Shown: positions 17,569-48,217 of the stretch, piece after piece
Position numbering within the stretch: the first letter of the stretch is position 1
Layout of the letters: every line of letters starts with the position of its first letter
DNA from: Arenimonas donghaensis DSM 18148 = HO3-R19
GTDB taxonomy: Bacteria; Pseudomonadota; Gammaproteobacteria; Xanthomonadales; Xanthomonadaceae
NCBI RefSeq assembly: GCF_000743535.1
Contig: NZ_AVCJ01000012.1
Span: 62,001 to 126,000, forward strand
Reading direction: 5' to 3'
Length of the DNA stretch: 64,000 nt
The notes under the pieces: model-generated
What the model was told of the DNA's origin: nothing
What the model saw: the letters and a program-made list of their open reading frames with translations, nothing else
Databases searched by the model: none
Program-made: the position numbers and the translations under genes

Positions 17569-18327
17569 ATGAGCGCCGACCTGTTCGACCTCGACCGGCT
17601 GCGGCAAAGCTGCGCGCAGTGCTCGCTGCACGTGCTGTGCCTGCCGGCCGGCATCGGTGGCCGCGACCTGGAGCAGCTCGATGAAATCGTGCGCACGCGA
17701 CGGCCGCTTGGCAAGGGCGACACGCTTTTCCGTGCGGGCCAGTCCCTGGGCTCGCTGTTCGTGGCGCGCGAAGGGGCCTTCAAGACCGTGGCCATCGACG
17801 CCGAGGGCGAGCAGCAGGTCGTCGGCTTCCACCTGCCGGGCGAGCTGATGGGCCTGGACGCGATGGGTAGCGGAAAACATGCCTGCGAGGCCGAGGCGCT
17901 ATCGCCCGCCAGCGTCTGCGAAATCCCGATGGCCCAGCTCGAGTCGGTGTGCCGGGCGGTGCCCGGCCTCCAGCACCAGCTGCTGCGCATCATCGGCCAG
18001 GGCATCAACCGCGACCAGTCGCACCTGGAAATGCTGGGGCGCCGCCAGGCCCACGAGCGGCTGGCGCTGTTCCTGCACGGCCTGTCCGAACGCTACAAGC
18101 TGCTCGGGCAGCCCAGCGACGTGCTCACTTTGCCGATGAGCCGCGAAGACATCGCCAGCTACCTGGGCCTGGTCATCGAAACGGTCAGCCGAACCCTGAC
18201 CAAGCTGCAGGACGAAGGCGTCATTGCCGTGCGTGGCCGGCAGGTGAAGATCCTCGACCGGGAGCGGCTTGATGAACTGGTCCACGCGCCGGCACCCACC
18301 GCGGCCAAGGCCCGCGGCCAGCGCTGA
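17569..18327 (+). CDS. FNR-type oxygen-sensing regulator (paralogue 1)
   Basis: This 252-residue Crp/Fnr-family activator has three N-terminal cysteines, C15, C18 and C24 (SCAQCSLHVLC), and C117 in SVCEIP. The 93-residue spacing from the third to the fourth cysteine equals that of E. coli FNR, so a [4Fe-4S] oxygen sensor is expected. The cyclic-nucleotide-type beta-barrel is at about 35-150. The C-terminal helix-turn-helix has ETVSRTLTKL, the E-x-x-S-R reading head that recognises TTGAT half-sites. It is a candidate controller of the FNR boxes at 29-56.6 kb; a second FNR lies at 54347-55096. It is co-directional with the upstream peptidase. Confidence 0.93.
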   Translation: MSADLFDLDRLRQSCAQCSLHVLCLPAGIGGRDLEQLDEIVRTRRPLGKGDTLFRAGQSLGSLFVAREGAFKTVAIDAEGEQQVVGFHLPGELMGLDAMGSGKHACEAEALSPASVCEIPMAQLESVCRAVPGLQHQLLRIIGQGINRDQSHLEMLGRRQAHERLALFLHGLSERYKLLGQPSDVLTLPMSREDIASYLGLVIETVSRTLTKLQDEGVIAVRGRQVKILDRERLDELVHAPAPTAAKARGQR

Positions 18328-30441: not shown

Positions 30442-31971
30442 TCAGTGCGCCGCGCCTTCGCCGCGCTCCGTATTGGCGCGCACCTTGGCTACGTCCTCCT
30501 TGCTGACCTTGCCACCGGGGTTGCCCCAGCTATTGAGCGCGTAAGTGAGGATGTTGGCCACCTCGTCGTCGGTGAGCTGGCTCATCGGCGGCATCACGGA
30601 GTTGTAGTCCTCGCCATTGACCTTGACCGGACCGGACAGGCCGTTGAGCACGATGGCTGCGAGTTCATCATGCGAACGCGTCATCCAGTCCGACTTGGCC
30701 AACGGCGGGAATACGCCCGTCATGCCGGCGCCTTCGATGCCGTGGCAGGTGGAGCAGGTGCCGGCAAACAGCGCCTTGCCAGCGGCCACCTGGTCTTCCA
30801 GCGTCAGCGTGCCCGATGCCTGGGCAGCGGCGGCCTGGGCCACCGGCTGCATGCTGGCGGCCTTGTCGCCCAGGTAGACGTGGTCGACTTCCTTGCCCGA
30901 ATAGATGCTCTTGTCCTCTTCACCATCCACCTGCAGGATGCCCAGCGCGCCCTTGTTGAAGGCGCGGAAGATCGAGTGGTCGACCAGCACGTAGCTGCCC
31001 GGCACTTCGAGGTGGAAGTCGGCGATCATCGCGCCGCCGGCGGGGATCAGGGTGGTCTGGACGTTTTCCTGGTAGCGGGTGCCGCCCTCGTACCAGACCT
31101 TGTCGAAGATCTCGCCGATCACGTGGAAGCTCGATACCAGGTTCGGGCCGCCATTGCCGACGTACAGGCGCACGTCCTCGCCGACGTTGGCCTTGATGGC
31201 CTTGTCGCCGGTGAGCGCGTTCTCCGACCCGTTGAACAGCACGTAGGTGGCGTTCTCGTCGATCGCCCGCTGCATGTCGAAGGGCGCGTGGCCCTTCTCG
31301 CGGTATTTGGTGGTTGTGTAGAAGTCGCCCTGCATGACGTAGAACTCCTTGTCCACCGGCGGCATGCCTTCGGGTGGCTCGACCAGGATAAGGCCGTACA
31401 TGCCGTTGGCGATGTGCATGCCCACCGGCGCCGTCGCGCAGTGGTAGACGTAAAGGCCGGCATTGAGCGCCTTGAAGGTGAACTGCGAGCCATGGCCCGG
31501 CGCGGTGAACGTCGACGCTGCGCCGCCACCCGGACCGGTGACGCCGTGCAGGTCGATGTTGTGGGGCATCTTCGAGTCGGGATGGTTGTGCAGGTGGAAT
31601 TCCACCGTGTCGCCCTGGCGCACCCGGATGAAGCTGCCTGGCACGGTGCCGCCGAATGTCCAGAACGTATAGGTGACGCCTTCGGCGATTTCCAGATCGA
31701 CCTCGCGGACCTCCAGTTCGACCTTCACCTTCGCAGGGTAGTCGCGGTTGGTCGGCGGGGGAACGTGGGGCGGCGAGGTCAACACGGCTTCGATCATTTC
31801 GCCCTGAGGCGGTCCGAAATCACCCTTGCGTGAACCGCCCGTGTCCGCGGAGCCAGCCGCGCGCTTGGCGACGACCGCTTCGTGGGCGTCCAGTTCGGAA
31901 TTGGGATTGTCGCGGCAGCCGGCGAGGGCCAGGGCGGCGGCAATGGACAGGACGAGCAGTGGGCGCTTCAT
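30442..31971 (-). CDS. nirK: Copper nitrite reductase NirK with C-terminal cytochrome c
   Basis: This 509-residue enzyme reduces nitrite to NO in the periplasm. The N-terminus has a lipobox (ALALAGC, C18), so it is probably a lipoprotein. Two cupredoxin domains (about 60-385) carry copper ligands in [18 protein letters not shown] and LVDHSIF. A C-terminal cytochrome c domain (about 395-505) has C406-STC-H410, giving a built-in electron donor as in haem-containing NirK of Ralstonia pickettii type. This haem domain is similar along its length to the N-terminal domain of the nearby NirS. The ATG at 31971 has GGAGACTCCACC before it. An FNR box lies 74 bases upstream. Confidence 0.95.
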
Positions 31972-32044
31972 GGTGGAGTCTCCGGTCGTGTGGCGTTCTG
32001 GCGATTCGATGCGGACAGCTTGCTGCCTATTCGCACGGCGTTCG

Positions 32045-32058
32045 TTGATGCACGTCAA
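32045..32058 (-). promoter_or_regulatory. FNR box upstream of nirK
   Basis: TTGATGCACGTCAA lies 74 bases from the nirK ATG in the divergent nirK-porin region. The TTGAT half-site matches the FNR consensus exactly. Confidence 0.8.
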
Positions 32059-32134
32059 GAAAGACCCATGAGGCCCAGTCTGGACGCAATTCATGCCGAA
32101 GTGAATGCCAGCGATGAGAAGAATTCGCCAAGGC

Positions 32135-32148
32135 TTGACCTGGCTCAA
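32135..32148 (+). promoter_or_regulatory. FNR-like box upstream of the porin gene
   Basis: TTGACCTGGCTCAA lies 66 bases from the porin ATG. One position of the right half departs from RTCAA. It suggests that the porin is also induced without oxygen. Confidence 0.6.
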
Positions 32149-33518: not shown

Positions 33519-33537
33519 TCTTTCCGGGGTGCGTGGG

Positions 33538-35791
<2,254 letters not shown>

Positions 35792-38061: not shown

Positions 38062-38075
38062 TTGACCGAGGTCAT
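38062..38075 (+). promoter_or_regulatory. FNR box upstream of the CM-UbiT gene
   Basis: TTGACCGAGGTCAT lies 26 bases from the first ATG (38102) and just after the receptor stop. The last base departs from the consensus. At this distance it could overlap the promoter, so activation versus repression is uncertain. Confidence 0.7.
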
Positions 38076-38101: not shown

Positions 38102-38905
38102 ATGCGCGCCATGACCCACCTGCCCCTGGCCGTCAGCCTGCTGCGTCACGGCGTCGACGGCATCGATGATGCGATGTTGCTGCTCGTGGCCGGCCGGCGC
38201 CGGCTCGTGGCCAGGCTGGCCGCCGGCAAACGCCGTGCGGGCCTGCCCGCACGCGATCCGGCCCGCGAAGACCAGGTCCTGGCCCGCGGACAAGGGCTGG
38301 CGCGCCGCCTGGGGCTGCCGCCCGGGCTGGCGCGGGGCCAGTTGGAGCTTTTGATCGCCGATGCCTGCCGCCTGCAGGATCCCGAGTCCGGAGAGACCAT
38401 GAGCGCAAACTCCCCCCGATCCCCGCTGCGCTGGTTCCCGCCCCCGCGTCGCTGGGCGCCGCTGCTTCGCCTGGTGCCCGCGCCCTGGCAGCGGCAGGCC
38501 ATGGAACGAGTCGTGGGTCGCCTGCTGGCCCAGCCCATCGGCGTCGGAGACCTGGAGTTCATGCAGGGTCGCCGCCTCGGCATCGAGGTCAGCGACCTGG
38601 GCCTGGCCTGGGTGCTTGAACTCGACGGCGAGCGCTTGCGAGTCGTCGAAGGCGAGGCCGAGGCCAGCGTGCGTGGCAGCGCCACCGACCTGCTGTTGCT
38701 CGCCAGCCGCCTGGAAGACGCCGACTCGCTGTTTTTCCAGCGTCGGCTTGAAGTCACCGGCGACACCGAGCTCGGTCTCACCGCGCGCAACCTGCTTGAC
38801 CGTCTTCCCTGGGAGTCGGTGCCGCTGGGCGTGCGCATCCTGCTGAACCGTGGCGCCCGTGCTGCTCGCTCCGCCCGTGAAGCCTGGCAGGGCGATGCGG
38901 CGTGA
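38102..38905 (+). CDS. ubiT: Chorismate mutase-UbiT fusion (anaerobic ubiquinone factor)
   Basis: This 267-residue protein has two parts. Residues 10-93 align without gaps to an AroQ chorismate mutase: R15, R32, K43, D52, R55, E56 and Q92 match the E. coli P-protein catalytic residues R11, R28, K39, D48, R51, E52 and Q88 at identical spacing; only S84 is replaced (A88). Residues 105-260 form an SCP2-type UbiT domain with WFPPPRRWAPLLRLVPAPWQRQAMERVVGRLL and the strand pattern of YhbT/UbiT, a lipid-binding factor for oxygen-independent ubiquinone synthesis. An in-frame ATG at 38399 follows GGAGAG seven bases upstream, so the UbiT part could also be made alone. It is first of ubiT-nadA-nadB, with overlapping stops and starts. 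Confidence 0.88.
   Translation: MRAMTHLPLAVSLLRHGVDGIDDAMLLLVAGRRRLVARLAAGKRRAGLPARDPAREDQVLARGQGLARRLGLPPGLARGQLELLIADACRLQDPESGETMSANSPRSPLRWFPPPRRWAPLLRLVPAPWQRQAMERVVGRLLAQPIGVGDLEFMQGRRLGIEVSDLGLAWVLELDGERLRVVEGEAEASVRGSATDLLLLASRLEDADSLFFQRRLEVTGDTELGLTARNLLDRLPWESVPLGVRILLNRGARAARSAREAWQGDAA
38390..38401 (+). promoter_or_regulatory. Internal ribosome site and start for UbiT alone
   Basis: GGAGAG-acc-ATG lies in frame within the fusion gene, exactly at the linker between the mutase and UbiT domains. It is stronger than the site before the first ATG (38102), so a separate 168-residue UbiT is possible. Confidence 0.55.
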
Positions 38906-43200: not shown

Positions 43201-44079
43201 TCAGCCAGGCGGAAGCCCGGGTTTCCCCGGCAGCCCCTGCCAATAGCCATTGACCGCGCCCCGGCGCGGTGGCGCCAGCGGCGATTCTCGCGCCAGGTCG
43301 AAATGTTCGACGACCTCACGCATTCCCGAGGCCTGCGGATACAGGCGCAGCAGGCCCACGCCGAGCGCACGCAGCGCCGGCAATTCGGGGCCGAGGTCGG
43401 TGATTTCCTCGCCAAGTACCTGGATGCCGTTGATGCGCAGGAAGGGCGTGCCCTCGCGCGTGGCAAGCGGCAGGCCATCGGGATGTTCGATGCAGCGGAA
43501 ACCGCAGGCGTCCTTGGGCACGTCCAGCGCACGGGCGGTGAAACAGCGGGCGGAATAAGACAACGGCAGGCGGCCCCAGGCGATCAACTCCAGCTCGGGC
43601 AATGCATGGCCTTGCGCCGCATGCGCGGCCAGCAGATCGTCCACCTGCCCGTGGCCCTGCTCGACGCCGGGCACCCAGCGCCTCAGGCCATCTTCGACCA
43701 GCATGGCCAGCGTGACGTGGTTGTAGATATTCAGGCTTGGTCCGGCAACGAAGGGCAGGCCTTGTTCACGACACAGCTGCACCGCGGTCAGGTCGTTGGC
43801 TTCGATCCAGAAGCCGCCGTGCGCCATCATGCGCTGGATCGCATTGAGCTCCGATTCGGCTTCGACCAGGGCCAGGCTCGACAACACGACCTCCTTGCCG
43901 GCCGCCGCCAGCTCGTCGGCCAGCGAGATCCAGTCGCGGGTTCCCAATTCGCGACGCTTGCTGCAGACGGTTTCGCCCAGGTAGAAGACGTCGACCGGCC
44001 AGCCGGCCGCTTCGCGGTAGAAGGCCAGTGTGCGCTCGCGGGGCCAGAAATATTGCAGGGGTCCGAGGCTGAGTTTCAT
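43201..44079 (-). CDS. ubiV: Anaerobic ubiquinone hydroxylase subunit UbiV (U32 family)
   Basis: This 292-residue U32-peptidase-like iron-sulfur protein works with UbiU to hydroxylate ubiquinone precursors without oxygen. Cysteines for the [4Fe-4S] cluster are seen in GETVCSKRREL and in ARCFTARALDVPKDACGFRC. The N-terminus LSLGPLQYFWPRE is the usual UbiV start. The ATG at 44079 lies four bases after the ubiU stop. The gene is in the ubiU operon, controlled by the FNR box at 45138. Confidence 0.93.
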   Translation of the reverse strand: MKLSLGPLQYFWPRERTLAFYREAAGWPVDVFYLGETVCSKRRELGTRDWISLADELAAAGKEVVLSSLALVEAESELNAIQRMMAHGGFWIEANDLTAVQLCREQGLPFVAGPSLNIYNHVTLAMLVEDGLRRWVPGVEQGHGQVDDLLAAHAAQGHALPELELIAWGRLPLSYSARCFTARALDVPKDACGFRCIEHPDGLPLATREGTPFLRINGIQVLGEEITDLGPELPALRALGVGLLRLYPQASGMREVVEHFDLARESPLAPPRRGAVNGYWQGLPGKPGLPPG

Positions 44080-44083
44080 GTGG

Positions 44084-45082
44084 TCAGTGCCAGGCGCGGT
44101 GGTAGGGGCCGAGGGTGGTCTGGTGGCCTTCGGCATGAGCGGACAGGGCCTTCTGCCAGCCGGGCTGGAGTCGCCAGTTGTCCGGATCGGCACGATGCCG
44201 GTCGATGGCGTCGCGCCAGGTGCGCGTGACCGCCGACACGTAGGCGACGCCGCGCTGGCGACCTTCGATCTTCAGCGCCGCGATGCCGGCCTTGGCGAGT
44301 TGCGGCAACAGTTCGAGCGTGTTGAGGCTGGTGGGCTCTTCAAGCGCGTGGAACGTTTCGCCGCCGACCGTGAAGCGGCCCTTGCACACGGTCGGGTAGG
44401 CAGCGGGTTCTCCCGGGGCGTAACGATCCATCAGCAGCCCGTTGAGTCTTACGCCGCGATCGCCACCCTCGTGTTCCTCCCACCGCACGAATCGTGCCGG
44501 CGAGCACACGCCGTGGCGGTTGGGCGAGGCGCCGGTGACGTAACTCGATAGCTGACAGCGGCCCTCGACCATGATGCAAAGGCTGCCGAAGGCGAATACC
44601 TCCAGGGGCACCGGCGAACGCTCGCAAAGGCGCTCTACCTGCTGCAGCGAAAGCACCCGGGGCAACACCGCGCGGCTTATGCCGAAGCGTTCGTGCATGT
44701 AGCGCAGCGCCGGTGCCGTGGTGGCCGACCCCTGGACGGAAAGGTGCCGGGCGAGCTGCGGATGCTCGCGCATGGCGTGCTCGAGAACCGCCATTTCGGC
44801 AGCGATGATCGCGTCGCAGCCCAGCGCCGCGGCGTGGTCCACGGCGGCCTGCCATACGCGCAGGCGCGATGTTTCCGGATAGGTGTTCAGGGCCAGGTAG
44901 ACCTTGCGGCCGCGCTGGTGCGCGTAGGCGATGCCGGCCCGGAGTTCGGAGTCGTCGAAGTTCAGGCCGGGGAAGGCGCGGGCATTGGTCTGGTCCCGGA
45001 AGCCGGCGTAGACCGCATCGGCGCCGGCATCGATCGCCGCGTGCAGGGCCGGCAAGTTTCCGGCGGGGCAGACCAGTTGCAT
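44084..45082 (-). CDS. ubiU: Anaerobic ubiquinone hydroxylase subunit UbiU (U32 family)
   Basis: This 332-residue U32-family protein is the partner of UbiV. It starts QLVCPAGNLPALHAAIDAGA. The cluster cysteines lie in SLCIMVEGRCQLSSYV, HGVCSPA and YPTVCKGRF, the pattern of E. coli UbiU. The complex needs a hydroxyl donor other than oxygen. It is first gene of ubiUV, with an FNR box 55 bases upstream of its ATG. Confidence 0.95.
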   Translation of the reverse strand: MQLVCPAGNLPALHAAIDAGADAVYAGFRDQTNARAFPGLNFDDSELRAGIAYAHQRGRKVYLALNTYPETSRLRVWQAAVDHAAALGCDAIIAAEMAVLEHAMREHPQLARHLSVQGSATTAPALRYMHERFGISRAVLPRVLSLQQVERLCERSPVPLEVFAFGSLCIMVEGRCQLSSYVTGASPNRHGVCSPARFVRWEEHEGGDRGVRLNGLLMDRYAPGEPAAYPTVCKGRFTVGGETFHALEEPTSLNTLELLPQLAKAGIAALKIEGRQRGVAYVSAVTRTWRDAIDRHRADPDNWRLQPGWQKALSAHAEGHQTTLGPYHRAWH

Positions 45083-45216: not shown

Positions 45217-45729
45217 ATGAAACGACTCCCTGGCAATACCCTGTTGATGTTGCTGCTGGCGGTCGTCCCGGGATTGGCCACGTGCAGTGAAACGGTGCCT
45301 GCCCGTCTGGAACCTGCCGCAGCCCCTGTCGAAGTGGAGCACGAGGCACATGCCGCCCACGAGGCCCTCGACGAAGCCACTCCGGCCCGGCGCTGGCTTC
45401 CCGACGCGCCGCTGAGCCGCGGCATGCAGCGCGTGCGTTCAGCCACGGAGACCTTGGGCCACGGCAGCCACGGTCATCTCGATGATGCCCAGGTGCGTGG
45501 TATCGCTGCGGAACTGAAGGCGGCCGTGGACATGATGTTCGCCGAGTGCAAGCTCGATCCCGAGCCCGATGCGGCGCTGCACCCGCTGCTGGCGCGGGTG
45601 CTCATGGCCAGCAATACGCTGTCGGAATCCGGCTACGACGCCACTGCACTGGCCGAACTGCAAGCCGTGGTCGCCCGCTATCCGCTGTTGTTCGACGATC
45701 CTGCCTGGAGCGCGTCCCAAAGCGACTGA
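45217..45729 (+). CDS. Hypothetical secreted protein divergent from ubiUV
   Basis: This 170-residue protein has a signal peptide (LPGNTLLMLLLAVVPGLAT). The rest is helical, with a histidine-rich stretch VEHEAHAAHEALDE and a conserved-looking core MFAECKLDPEPDAALHPLLARVL. It may be a helical-bundle metal- or haem-binding periplasmic protein, and from memory it resembles small proteins labelled DnrO in this group, unconfirmed. It shares the FNR box at 45138 with ubiU. Its 3' end overlaps the convergent ubiD by 52 bases. Confidence 0.7.
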   Translation: MKRLPGNTLLMLLLAVVPGLATCSETVPARLEPAAAPVEVEHEAHAAHEALDEATPARRWLPDAPLSRGMQRVRSATETLGHGSHGHLDDAQVRGIAAELKAAVDMMFAECKLDPEPDAALHPLLARVLMASNTLSESGYDATALAELQAVVARYPLLFDDPAWSASQSD

Positions 45730-47165
45730 ACGCGGCGCTCAACCGCCGGGTCGGGCACGATCGCTTCGCTCCATGGGCGGCTGGTCTCGCCGGGCAGTTT
45801 GCGCGTGGCGTCCAGTCCGAGCTTGGAGCCCAGGTTGGGCGCAGGGCTGGAGAAGTCGAGGTAGTCGATCGGCGTGTTTTCCACCAGCAGGCAGTCGCGA
45901 GCCGGGTCCGTGCGTGTGGACAGCGCCCAGAGCACCTGAGACCAGTCGCGGACGTCGATGTCGTCGTCGGTGACGATAACGAACTTGGTGTAGGTGAACT
46001 GCCGAAGGTAGGACCAGATGCCCATCATGATCCGACGAGCGTGCCCGGGGTACTGCTTGCGGATGCTGACTACCGCGATCCGGTAGGAGCAGGCTTCCGG
46101 GGGCAGGTAGAAGTCCACGATCTCCGGGAAGACCTTGCGCAGGATCGGCACGAAGACATCATTGAGCGCCGAGCTGAGCACCGAGGGTTCGTCTTCCGGA
46201 GCCCGTCCCATGTAGCTGCCGTGGTAGATCGCTTCGCGGCGCATTCGCAACCGACTGACGGTCAGGACAGGGAACTCGCCCTGGGCGTTGTAATAGCCGG
46301 TGTGATCGCCGAAGGGGCCTTCGGTCGCGGTGTCACCCGGCTCGATGAAACCTTCCAGCACGATTTCCGCGCCCGCCGGGGCATCCAGGCCGGTCAGGGC
46401 GCTGTGCCATACGCGCGTGCGCGCCCCGCGCAACAGTCCTGCGAATTCGTACTCCGACAGCGTGTCGGGTACCGGTGCCACCGCGGCAAGCATCGTCGCC
46501 GGATCGGCGCCGATCGCAACCAGAACCGGGAAAGGCCGGTCGGGAAACGCGGCGCGGAAATCAGCGAAATCCAGGGCGCCACCGCGGTGCGGCAGCCAGC
46601 GCATGATCACCCGGTTACGGCCCAGCAGCTGCTGCCGGTAGATGGCGACGTTCTGCCGCGGCTGGCGGGTACCGCGGGTGACCACCAGGCCGAAGGTGAT
46701 CAGGCGGGCGACGTCGCCCGGCCAGCAGCGCTGGATCGGCAGCGAGCCCAGGTCGATGTCGTTGCCTTCGATCACGATCTCGTTGAAGCCGGCCTCGTTG
46801 GTCACCCGGGGCGCGACATGCGCCAGCTGCGCCAGCTCCGGCCAGGTCGACAGGGCATTGCGAAGGCTTGATGGCCAGCGTGGTTCCTTGATCGACGCGA
46901 GAAGCTCCCCCAGCTCGCGCAGCGAGGCCAGCGGCCGCCCACCCAGCGCCAGCTCGATGCGGTCGCGATGGCCGAACAGGTTGCCCAGCAGGGCATGACG
47001 CGAACCCACGGGGTTGCGCATCAACAGTGCCGGACCGCCCGCGCGCAGAACATGGCGGCACAGCGCCGTGCTTTCCAGCTCCGGATCCACCGGCGCGCCG
47101 AGTTCCAGCAGCTGGCGACGTCGCGACAGCTCGCCGAGGAAGCCGCGCAGGTCGTGGTGGCTCAT
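45678..47165 (-). CDS. ubiD: UbiD-family (prenylated-FMN) decarboxylase
   Basis: This 495-residue decarboxylase of 3-octaprenyl-4-hydroxybenzoate in ubiquinone synthesis is recognised from EGPFGDHTGYYNAQGEFPVLTVSRLRMR and the E-x-x-R/D-type motif around NDVFVPILRKVFPEIVDFYLPPE. Length agrees with E. coli UbiD. The ATG at 47165 overlaps the stop of the upstream cysteine-synthase-like gene (ATGA). Being in an FNR-driven operon together with nnrS, it may be the anaerobic supply of this step; another ubiD may exist elsewhere. It overlaps the convergent secreted-protein gene. Confidence 0.92.
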   Translation of the reverse strand: MSHHDLRGFLGELSRRRQLLELGAPVDPELESTALCRHVLRAGGPALLMRNPVGSRHALLGNLFGHRDRIELALGGRPLASLRELGELLASIKEPRWPSSLRNALSTWPELAQLAHVAPRVTNEAGFNEIVIEGNDIDLGSLPIQRCWPGDVARLITFGLVVTRGTRQPRQNVAIYRQQLLGRNRVIMRWLPHRGGALDFADFRAAFPDRPFPVLVAIGADPATMLAAVAPVPDTLSEYEFAGLLRGARTRVWHSALTGLDAPAGAEIVLEGFIEPGDTATEGPFGDHTGYYNAQGEFPVLTVSRLRMRREAIYHGSYMGRAPEDEPSVLSSALNDVFVPILRKVFPEIVDFYLPPEACSYRIAVVSIRKQYPGHARRIMMGIWSYLRQFTYTKFVIVTDDDIDVRDWSQVLWALSTRTDPARDCLLVENTPIDYLDFSSPAPNLGSKLGLDATRKLPGETSRPWSEAIVPDPAVERRVQSLWDALQAGSSNNSG

Positions 47166-48217
47166 GCGTTCAGGCGTTGCATCAGCGTCGCCCTGGCGTC
47201 GGCCATGTTGATTCCCTGTCGTGCCAACCAGTCCGGATCGAACAGGCTTTCGGCGTAACGTTCGCCACGGTCGCACAGCAGGCTCACGATGGCGCCGTGT
47301 TCGCCGCGCTTTCGCATGCCTGCGGCCAGGCGCAGGCAGGCCACCAGGTTGGTGCCCGAACTGCCGCCGTAGCGACGGCCCAGCGCCTGTTCGAGCCACC
47401 AACAGGCGGCGATCGAGTCGGCATCGTCCACTTCTTCGACGGCATCGACCACGTCGTAGATGAAGCCGGGTTCGGCATGGCCCCGACCGATGCCCTCGAC
47501 CAGCGTTGGCTGGCTGGCGACGGCCGCGGCGTCGCGCGTGTGCCAGCCGACGGCGAAAGCGCCGCCGGTGGGTTCGGCGACGCAGACCCGGGTATCCAGG
47601 CGCCGGTAGCGCAGGTAGCGGCCCAGCGTGGCCGAGGTGCCGCCGGTGCCGGCGCCGCAGACCACCCAGGCCGGCTCAGGGTCGGGTTCCAGCGCCAGCT
47701 GGGCCAGGATCGATTCGGCGATGTTGTTGTTGCCGCGCCAGTCGGTGGCGCGTTCGGCCAGGCCGAACTGGTCCAGGTAACACAGCCCTTCGCGGTCGGC
47801 GCGCTCACGCGCCATCCGGCTGGCGTCCAGGCCCGGTGGCAGCAACACGCATTCGGCGCCCAGCGAGCGGATCAGGCGCACCTTGGCTGGCGCCGTGCAG
47901 TCGGGCATCACGGCCTGGAAACGCAGCCCCAGCAGCCGGGCGAACCAGGCTTCGGAAATCGCGGTGCTGCCCGAGGACGCGTCGATGACGCCCTGGCCTT
48001 CGCGCAGACGGCCGTTGCACAGCGCGTACAGGTAAAGCGAACGCGCCAGCCGATGCTTGAGGCTGCCGGTCGGATGCGCCGCCTCGTCCTTGAAGTAGAA
48101 ACGGATGCCCGGGAACGCCGGCAGGTCCAGGCGCAGCAGGTGGGTGTCGGCCGAACGCGCGGCTTCCTGGGCGAGACAGGCCAGGGCCTGCTTGAGCCAG
48201 GTTCGACTGGCGATCAT
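47162..48217 (-). CDS. PLP-dependent cysteine synthase/desulfhydrase family protein
   Basis: This 351-residue fold-type II PLP enzyme has its PLP lysine in HPTGSLKHR, an altered substrate loop DASSGSTAIS (TSGNTG in CysK), and the phosphate loop GAGTGGTSATLG. It resembles the cysteine-synthase-like proteins of the Cds1/desulfhydrase branch rather than CysK or CysM. It may make or break cysteine. It lies in a five-gene overlapping operon with nnrS and ubiD; cysteine-derived sulfide or sulfur supply during NO stress is one possible role (inference). Confidence 0.82.
   Translation of the reverse strand: MIASRTWLKQALACLAQEAARSADTHLLRLDLPAFPGIRFYFKDEAAHPTGSLKHRLARSLYLYALCNGRLREGQGVIDASSGSTAISEAWFARLLGLRFQAVMPDCTAPAKVRLIRSLGAECVLLPPGLDASRMARERADREGLCYLDQFGLAERATDWRGNNNIAESILAQLALEPDPEPAWVVCGAGTGGTSATLGRYLRYRRLDTRVCVAEPTGGAFAVGWHTRDAAAVASQPTLVEGIGRGHAEPGFIYDVVDAVEEVDDADSIAACWWLEQALGRRYGGSSGTNLVACLRLAAGMRKRGEHGAIVSLLCDRGERYAESLFDPDWLARQGINMADARATLMQRLNA

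Follow-up and report, generated by a model that had tools for sequence, protein, structure and literature searches.

Why should a chorismate mutase be joined to the lipid carrier of a ubiquinone pathway? A gene of this make-up lies in a 64,000-nucleotide stretch of the Arenimonas donghaensis DSM 18148 = HO3-R19 genome (2.98 Mb, 51 contigs), hereafter the window. A link between the two partners is offered by recent work in Escherichia coli. As far as the accessible text of the sources goes, prephenate is reported to be the hydroxyl oxygen donor of UbiU/UbiV in this organism (PMC11574389, citing PNAS 2024), having been proposed as a possible oxygen donor by Arias-Cartin 2023 (PMC10470549). The earlier note on this DNA had pointed to the prephenate dependence of the E. 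coli U32 hydroxylases RlhA and TrhP, which matches the consulted portion of Sakai 2019 (PMC6599085).

A chorismate mutase domain fused in frame to UbiT

The fusion gene (38102..38905, + strand) encodes 267 amino acids in one open frame. Translation may begin only at the second ATG (38111), which is matched by a start codon at the same alignment place in several of the 18 relatives inspected. Residues 14–92 (38141..38377, +) form an AroQ chorismate mutase (CM) domain as judged by a Pfam CM_2 match (PF01817; 47.2 bits, cut-off 27), alignment to the E. coli CM 1ecm and the structural model, and residues 122–238 (38465..38815, +) form a UbiT SCP2-type lipid-carrier domain recognized by NCBIfam NF047962 (127.7 bits, cut-off 46.9), with Pfam SCP2 matching residues 146–233 (58 bits, cut-off 21.3). 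The two domains thus share a frame, as had been claimed: the protein runs without a stop through both, each above its curated cut-off. By its profile scores, the fused CM domain is outside the named NCBIfam CM subfamilies, no equivalog model having reached its cut-off (best 42.2 versus 120 bits).

The linker (38375-38440) carries an in-frame ATG (38399..38401, +; residue 100) with GGAGAG ahead of it, a possible second start for UbiT alone. Such an ATG is found in 65 of 69 aligned fusions, against 31 expected, and is accompanied by a Shine-Dalgarno-like 4-mer in only 15; judging from this pattern, it may be a vestige or a second start still in use. The alignment of 69 fusions, used throughout, comprises the window protein and 68 of 80 named loci. 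Excluded from it were the frame-broken L110, four loci with the CM part missing from the extracted sequence (L106, L108, L121, L133) and seven near-copies (L069, L076, L083, L088, L095, L097, L116).

Distribution and loss of the fusion

When 397 Lysobacterales genomes were searched, the matches listed included the full-length fusion in 58, full length being taken as a query start at 2–4 and an end at 276–279, counted by hand; the same genomes include three partial forms and at least 35 with UbiT alone. No fusion was found outside Lysobacterales in samples of the class (369 genomes) or the phylum (398 genomes). A closer survey of 61 genomes, the window's own included, placed 24 above the UbiT cut-off: 20 encode CM and UbiT in one frame, three encode UbiT without CM, and in one, G003 (in all likelihood locus L110 of Arenimonas daejeonensis), the frame is broken, with CM and UbiT in different frames. 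The fusion spans several Lysobacterales families, and its named carriers include Arenimonas, Lysobacter, Thermomonas, Stenotrophomonas, Pseudoxanthomonas, Dyella, Rhodanobacter, Frateuria and Dokdonella, together with Xanthomonas chitinilytica; 80 named loci were retained, of which 79 are in-frame fusions. Two neighbouring genes in place of a fusion are excluded by the single stop-free frame and by the 20 of 24 UbiT genomes with a one-frame CM–UbiT; an assembly accident is excluded by the identical architecture in many named genera. One Lysobacterales-type fusion (L109) is labelled Erythrobacter sp. 34-65-8, an alphaproteobacterial genus, and probably represents a mis-binned contig.

In the UbiT tree, 20 chosen fused rows fall into one group with support of 100/99, placed next to unfused members of one other Lysobacterales family. 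Six rows without a fused CM nest within the fused group, one of them on a long branch, and their placement looks as CM losses would. The UbiT proteins of L234 and L235 (G065, G101; family f11) lack CM and nest in the fused group beside G317, a tree position that raises the possibility of another CM loss.

Individual genomes depart from this architecture. In G340 and G283, the CM domain has been lost, ubiT and the U32 proteins are retained and PheA is present in each, which implies that PheA can suffice and that the fused CM is dispensable there. CM and UbiT are separate genes on one contig in G317, 35 kb apart (CM at L237 3794-4306; UbiT at L236); the CM retains R, R, K, D, R, E and Q when its sequence is read by eye, and the arrangement is perhaps a natural split of the fusion. 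G214 holds a decayed fusion and no U32 protein. In G047 (L253 8073-9665), CM and linker persist with no ubiT nearby and no U32 protein, and the active-site Lys reads as Arg; this CM is perhaps a decaying remnant.

Co-occurrence with UbiU and UbiV

A UbiU-type U32 protein was detected in all 68 fusion genomes (67 in-frame and one frame-broken), each with at most two U32 proteins, and in none of seven UbiT-less relatives, a hand-picked few of many, in the same U32-family search of 80 genomes. The 68 comprise 58 genomes from the order survey and ten from the 61-genome survey, G003 included. The co-occurrence of AroQ–SCP2 fusions with ubiU/ubiV, which the earlier note put forward as a check, thus holds through the UbiU-type protein, and no fusion genome among the 68 was encountered without any ubiU/ubiV. 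The UbiU type was assigned, by comparison with the window, to the strong match of ~185–208 bits (two fragmentary exceptions). A weaker UbiV-type match was seen in 50 of the 68 and missed in 18; the U32 model missed even the window genome's own UbiV in the 80-genome search, yet found it in a single-genome search. There, both PF01136 (U32) matches are UbiU and UbiV, so that the genome holds ubiU and ubiV alongside its UbiT. No third U32 protein appeared in any of the 80 genomes searched, and hence neither RlhA nor TrhP was detected in them.

Genomic surroundings and putative regulation

On the 3' side of the fusion, nadA, nadB, fabA and fabB (+) are followed by the U32 hydroxylase subunit genes ubiV (43201..44079, −; NF047965, 341.4 bits, cut-off 275) and ubiU (44084..45082, −; NF047963, 525.6 bits, cut-off 440), and then by a ubiD-family decarboxylase gene of the shared ubiquinone pathway (45678..47402, −; profile match). 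The UbiD frame has ~76 residues ahead of the family match and probably an overcalled start. An FNR-type box, TTGACcgagGTCAT (38062..38075, +), is centred 33 bp before the ATG at 38102 and departs by one mismatch from what we take to be the FNR consensus; a second FNR-type box, also one mismatch off, precedes ubiU. The fusion had been described as lying under an FNR box near ubiU/ubiV. The box, imperfect as it is, and the proximity stand, with ubiU ~5.2 kb away; a shared operon does not, as ubiU is on the opposite strand and nadA, nadB, fabA and fabB lie between.

Across the 80 fusions, FNR-like boxes precede 24, the window's own included, against a background of 6.4%, and were not found before the other 56. 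The gene ubiU lies inside the fetched stretch in 63 of the 80 named loci, 0.9–6.9 kb from the fusion and in 62 cases on the other strand; for the remaining 17 it is absent from the stretch, several of these stretches being ended by contig ends. The window also encodes a copper nitrite reductase, a cbb3 oxidase, NnrS, NorB and an FNR-type regulator (17569..18327, +; 215.7 bits, below the Fnr model cut-off of 228), a set that fits a denitrifier; the regulator is likely the reader of the FNR-type boxes. Two side observations concern this region: the copper nitrite reductase (30442-32148, −) has a cytochrome c-like C-terminal stretch, with a ccoP model match at residues 454-541, and at 33529-35781 (+) and 33538-35643 (−) a 701-residue cytochrome-c-like frame lies opposite a 750-residue frame, likely a high-GC shadow frame.

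Conservation and predicted fold of the chorismate mutase domain

A phmmer comparison aligned the domain with the E. coli CM 1ecm without gaps and at a constant offset of +4 (E 0.011). The catalytic set of the E. coli enzyme, which we take to be R11, R28, K39, D48, R51, E52, S84 and Q88, is largely preserved: R11/R28/K39/D48/R51/E52/Q88 correspond to R15/R32/K43/D52/R55/E56/Q92 of the fusion, and S84 aligns with A88, leaving the eighth active-site residue changed. Seven of eight AroQ catalytic residues at E. coli P-protein spacing, as had been read from the window sequence, is thus what the ungapped alignment gives as well.

The 69 aligned fusions extend this picture. R15, R32, K43, R55 and E56 do not vary, Q92 is kept in 68 and D52 in 64 (N in five), and the position of S84 is occupied by A or G in 68. 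Eight of the 83 columns tie at the top as invariant (R15, D19, D22, R32, K43, R55, E56, R62), and all seven catalytic positions rank within the 13 most conserved, ranks as low as these being reached in 0 of 300,000 random draws. Column entropy averages 1.59 bits over the CM domain against 1.04 bits over UbiT, even though the catalytic columns are conserved, suggesting that the pocket is held as the rest of the CM domain drifts. Calculated for five pairs, of which one is close to saturation, the CM-domain dN/dS was 0.10–0.27.

AlphaFold2 run on the 69 sequences returned a model with a mean pLDDT of 88.7, in which N-terminal helices at residues 9–46, 53–70 and 74–92 are followed by a mixed α/β part. 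The best Foldseek match of the model was the UbiJ-SCP2 structure 6h6o_A; the match to E. coli CM 1ecm_A had an rmsd of 1.1 Å, a TM score of 0.86 by target length and an E of 4.7e-3. The AroQ fold foreseen for the N-terminal part was recovered as a three-helix protomer in this single-chain model.

Stand-alone chorismate mutase genes beside ubiT

A stand-alone CM gene directly adjoins ubiT in five of 114 unfused ubiT neighbourhoods, in five families other than those of the fusion, and no further CM was seen in the set, the other 109 being without one. Not counted among the 114 are L178 and L237, which have a CM alone, L253, which has no ubiT, and L270-L272, members of the fused lineage whose CM has been lost or has decayed. 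Of the 114, 32 span less than 15 kb and 94 show ubiU or ubiV, so a few of the "UbiT" proteins could be other SCP2 proteins. No more than 72 bp separates the open frames of the adjacent CM and ubiT, which in one pair overlap, and the domain matches lie 156–320 bp apart; the CM is on the strand opposite to ubiT in L174, L175, L177 and L218 and on the same strand in L176. Five such adjacencies have a chance probability of ~5e-7, assuming two CMs per 3 Mb and ignoring kinship. In the UbiT tree, the adjacent-CM rows are drawn in several places, on long branches, with labels counted against the fused rows only; a single origin may still apply. All five adjacent CMs keep R15, R32, K43, R55 and E56. 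Neither D52 nor Q92 is aligned in L174, L175, L176 and L177, only L218 having both, so these four may not be ordinary mutases, and what they catalyse is less certain than for the fusions.

Among 76 hand-picked genomes that are at least 90% complete and have a UbiT match (75 unfused plus G029), a CM lies beside ubiT in five of the seven unfused genomes without a CM–prephenate dehydratase (CM-PDT) protein versus none of the 68 with one (Fisher 1.2e-6, kinship ignored); the CM-PDT protein is the sole CM_2 in each of the 68, and so none of these has a CM beside ubiT. G029 (Lysobacter sp. GX 14042) has no CM_2 apart from the fusion, a search for prephenate dehydratase (PDT) found none there, and the sole PDH_N match is barely at the cut-off (26.5 bits, in a 621-residue frame). 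Likewise, the CM adjoining ubiT is the only CM_2 in G650 and G597, and PDT is absent. The other three adjacent-CM genomes have another CM elsewhere: on a protein read as DAHP-synthase-like in G457, on a frame with a weak PDH_N match in G565, and next to a separate PDT gene in G703. Two genomes with ubiT, G724 (99% complete) and G728 (94%), had no CM_2, PDT or PDH detected. G728 holds ubiU and ubiV; in G724, the 18 kb leading up to the contig end near ubiT showed neither gene. CM_2, PDT and PDH are all present in their nearest sampled kin, G621 and G628, and the lack of CM in the pair is possibly an assembly gap, a lost aromatic cluster or a real exception. A PheA-type CM-PDT protein is also encoded in the window's genome, and one CM each was found in the five UbiT-less relatives checked (G008, G012, G062, G075, G089).

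A putative dedicated prephenate source

Based on these sequence comparisons, we consider it likely that the CM–UbiT fusion is a dedicated prephenate source for the oxygen-independent ubiquinone pathway. In the proposed mechanism, the AroQ domain would turn chorismate into prephenate, and the UbiT domain joined to it would carry the hydrophobic ubiquinone intermediate; UbiU/UbiV would take the hydroxyl oxygen from prephenate and place it, without O2, on the UbiT-held ring. The fusion would be the pathway's own oxygen-donor supply, separate from the Phe-pathway mutase PheA, and would probably be switched on by FNR at low oxygen. The earlier note had arrived at the same reading from the window, and it gains support from the conserved catalytic residues, the co-occurrence with UbiU-type proteins in 68 of 68 genomes, the CM–ubiT adjacency in five families, and G029. 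Our confidence is slightly lowered by the four of five adjacent CMs that are without two catalytic residues and by the three genomes with another CM.

Two alternatives are about equally improbable. The CM domain could have a structural role, helping to assemble the UbiTUV complex by dimerization or docking without any need for catalysis. AroQ is an intertwined dimer and would dimerize UbiT, and the greater average variability of the CM columns would suit such a part; a docking role does not account for catalytic pocket residues being among the most conserved CM positions, nor could the stand-alone CMs beside ubiT in five families tether UbiT by fusion, and the G317 CM keeps its seven residues though apart from UbiT. 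The AroQ scaffold could also bind or catalyse something else, as a prephenate sensor or carrier or as a chorismate/isochorismate lyase. Lyases such as PchB share the AroQ fold, and the replacement of S84 by A or G in nearly all fusions, along with the changed or missing D52 and Q92 in four of five adjacent CMs, is in line with another activity; against this, the remaining E. coli CM residues are kept in the fusions at identical spacing and the profile scores fall on chorismate mutase families. Weakest of all is the idea, in part an alternative of the earlier note, that the CM domain draws chorismate away from 4-hydroxybenzoate or supplies aromatic amino acid synthesis and was joined to UbiT by operon accident: chorismate is a shared precursor and the same genome has a PheA-type CM-PDT, but the comparative evidence makes the idea very improbable, as each UbiT-less relative checked has a single CM, the fused CM persists in G029 though PDT is absent there and the sole PDH_N match is just at the cut-off, and draining chorismate would presumably starve the partner's own pathway.

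Returning to the dedicated prephenate source, a broader proposal is that the oxygen-independent ubiquinone machinery recurrently includes a prephenate supply on which selection can act, with the Lysobacterales fusion bringing donor and acceptor together on UbiU/UbiV and CM-PDT-less members of five other families keeping a CM-type gene beside ubiT; toward this we lean by a narrow measure. That prephenate acts as an organic oxygen donor has been reported only recently, in E. coli, and the fusion, the CM–ubiT adjacency and the PDT-less genomes that keep a CM constitute evidence from nature for such chemistry and point to an organization of donor supply. The fusions are, moreover, single-chain constructs made by nature, and hosts whose Phe pathway is reduced allow direct tests of prephenate use by UbiU/UbiV.

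Comparison with known systems

We found no report of a CM–UbiT fusion in the searchable full-text literature, nor a full-text paper combining "chorismate mutase" with "UbiT"; the PNAS 2024 paper and subscription journals lie outside that scope, and a prior mention is possible there. The accessible text of two ubiTUV surveys (PMC6747719, PMC11707229) mentions no CM fusion and contains chorismate solely in the reference lists. No precedent for an enzyme that makes an organic oxygen donor at the hydroxylase site was found in the literature searched.

With the AroQ domain of the E. coli P-protein (1ecm), the fusion shares the predicted fold, seven of eight active-site residues and their spacing; it differs in having A at the position of S84 and UbiT as partner instead of prephenate dehydratase. 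RlhA and TrhP are, like UbiU/UbiV, U32 proteins with a need for prephenate, which in E. coli comes from PheA/TyrA, with no fused CM mentioned in the consulted portion of the source (PMC6599085); in the window's genome, PF01136 finds only UbiU and UbiV. Like E. coli UbiT (YhbT), as described in the accessible text of PMC6747719, the protein has an SCP2 carrier domain, co-occurs with ubiU/ubiV and is preceded by an FNR-type box. E. coli UbiT is a stand-alone protein of 174 residues, whereas here an AroQ mutase is fused ahead of UbiT. Another parallel is the UbiT–UbiU fusion of Zymomonas mobilis (Pelosi 2019, PMC6747719, same portion of text), in which ubiT has likewise fused with another gene of this pathway; there the partner is the hydroxylase subunit UbiU, whereas here it is a putative oxygen-donor-making enzyme.
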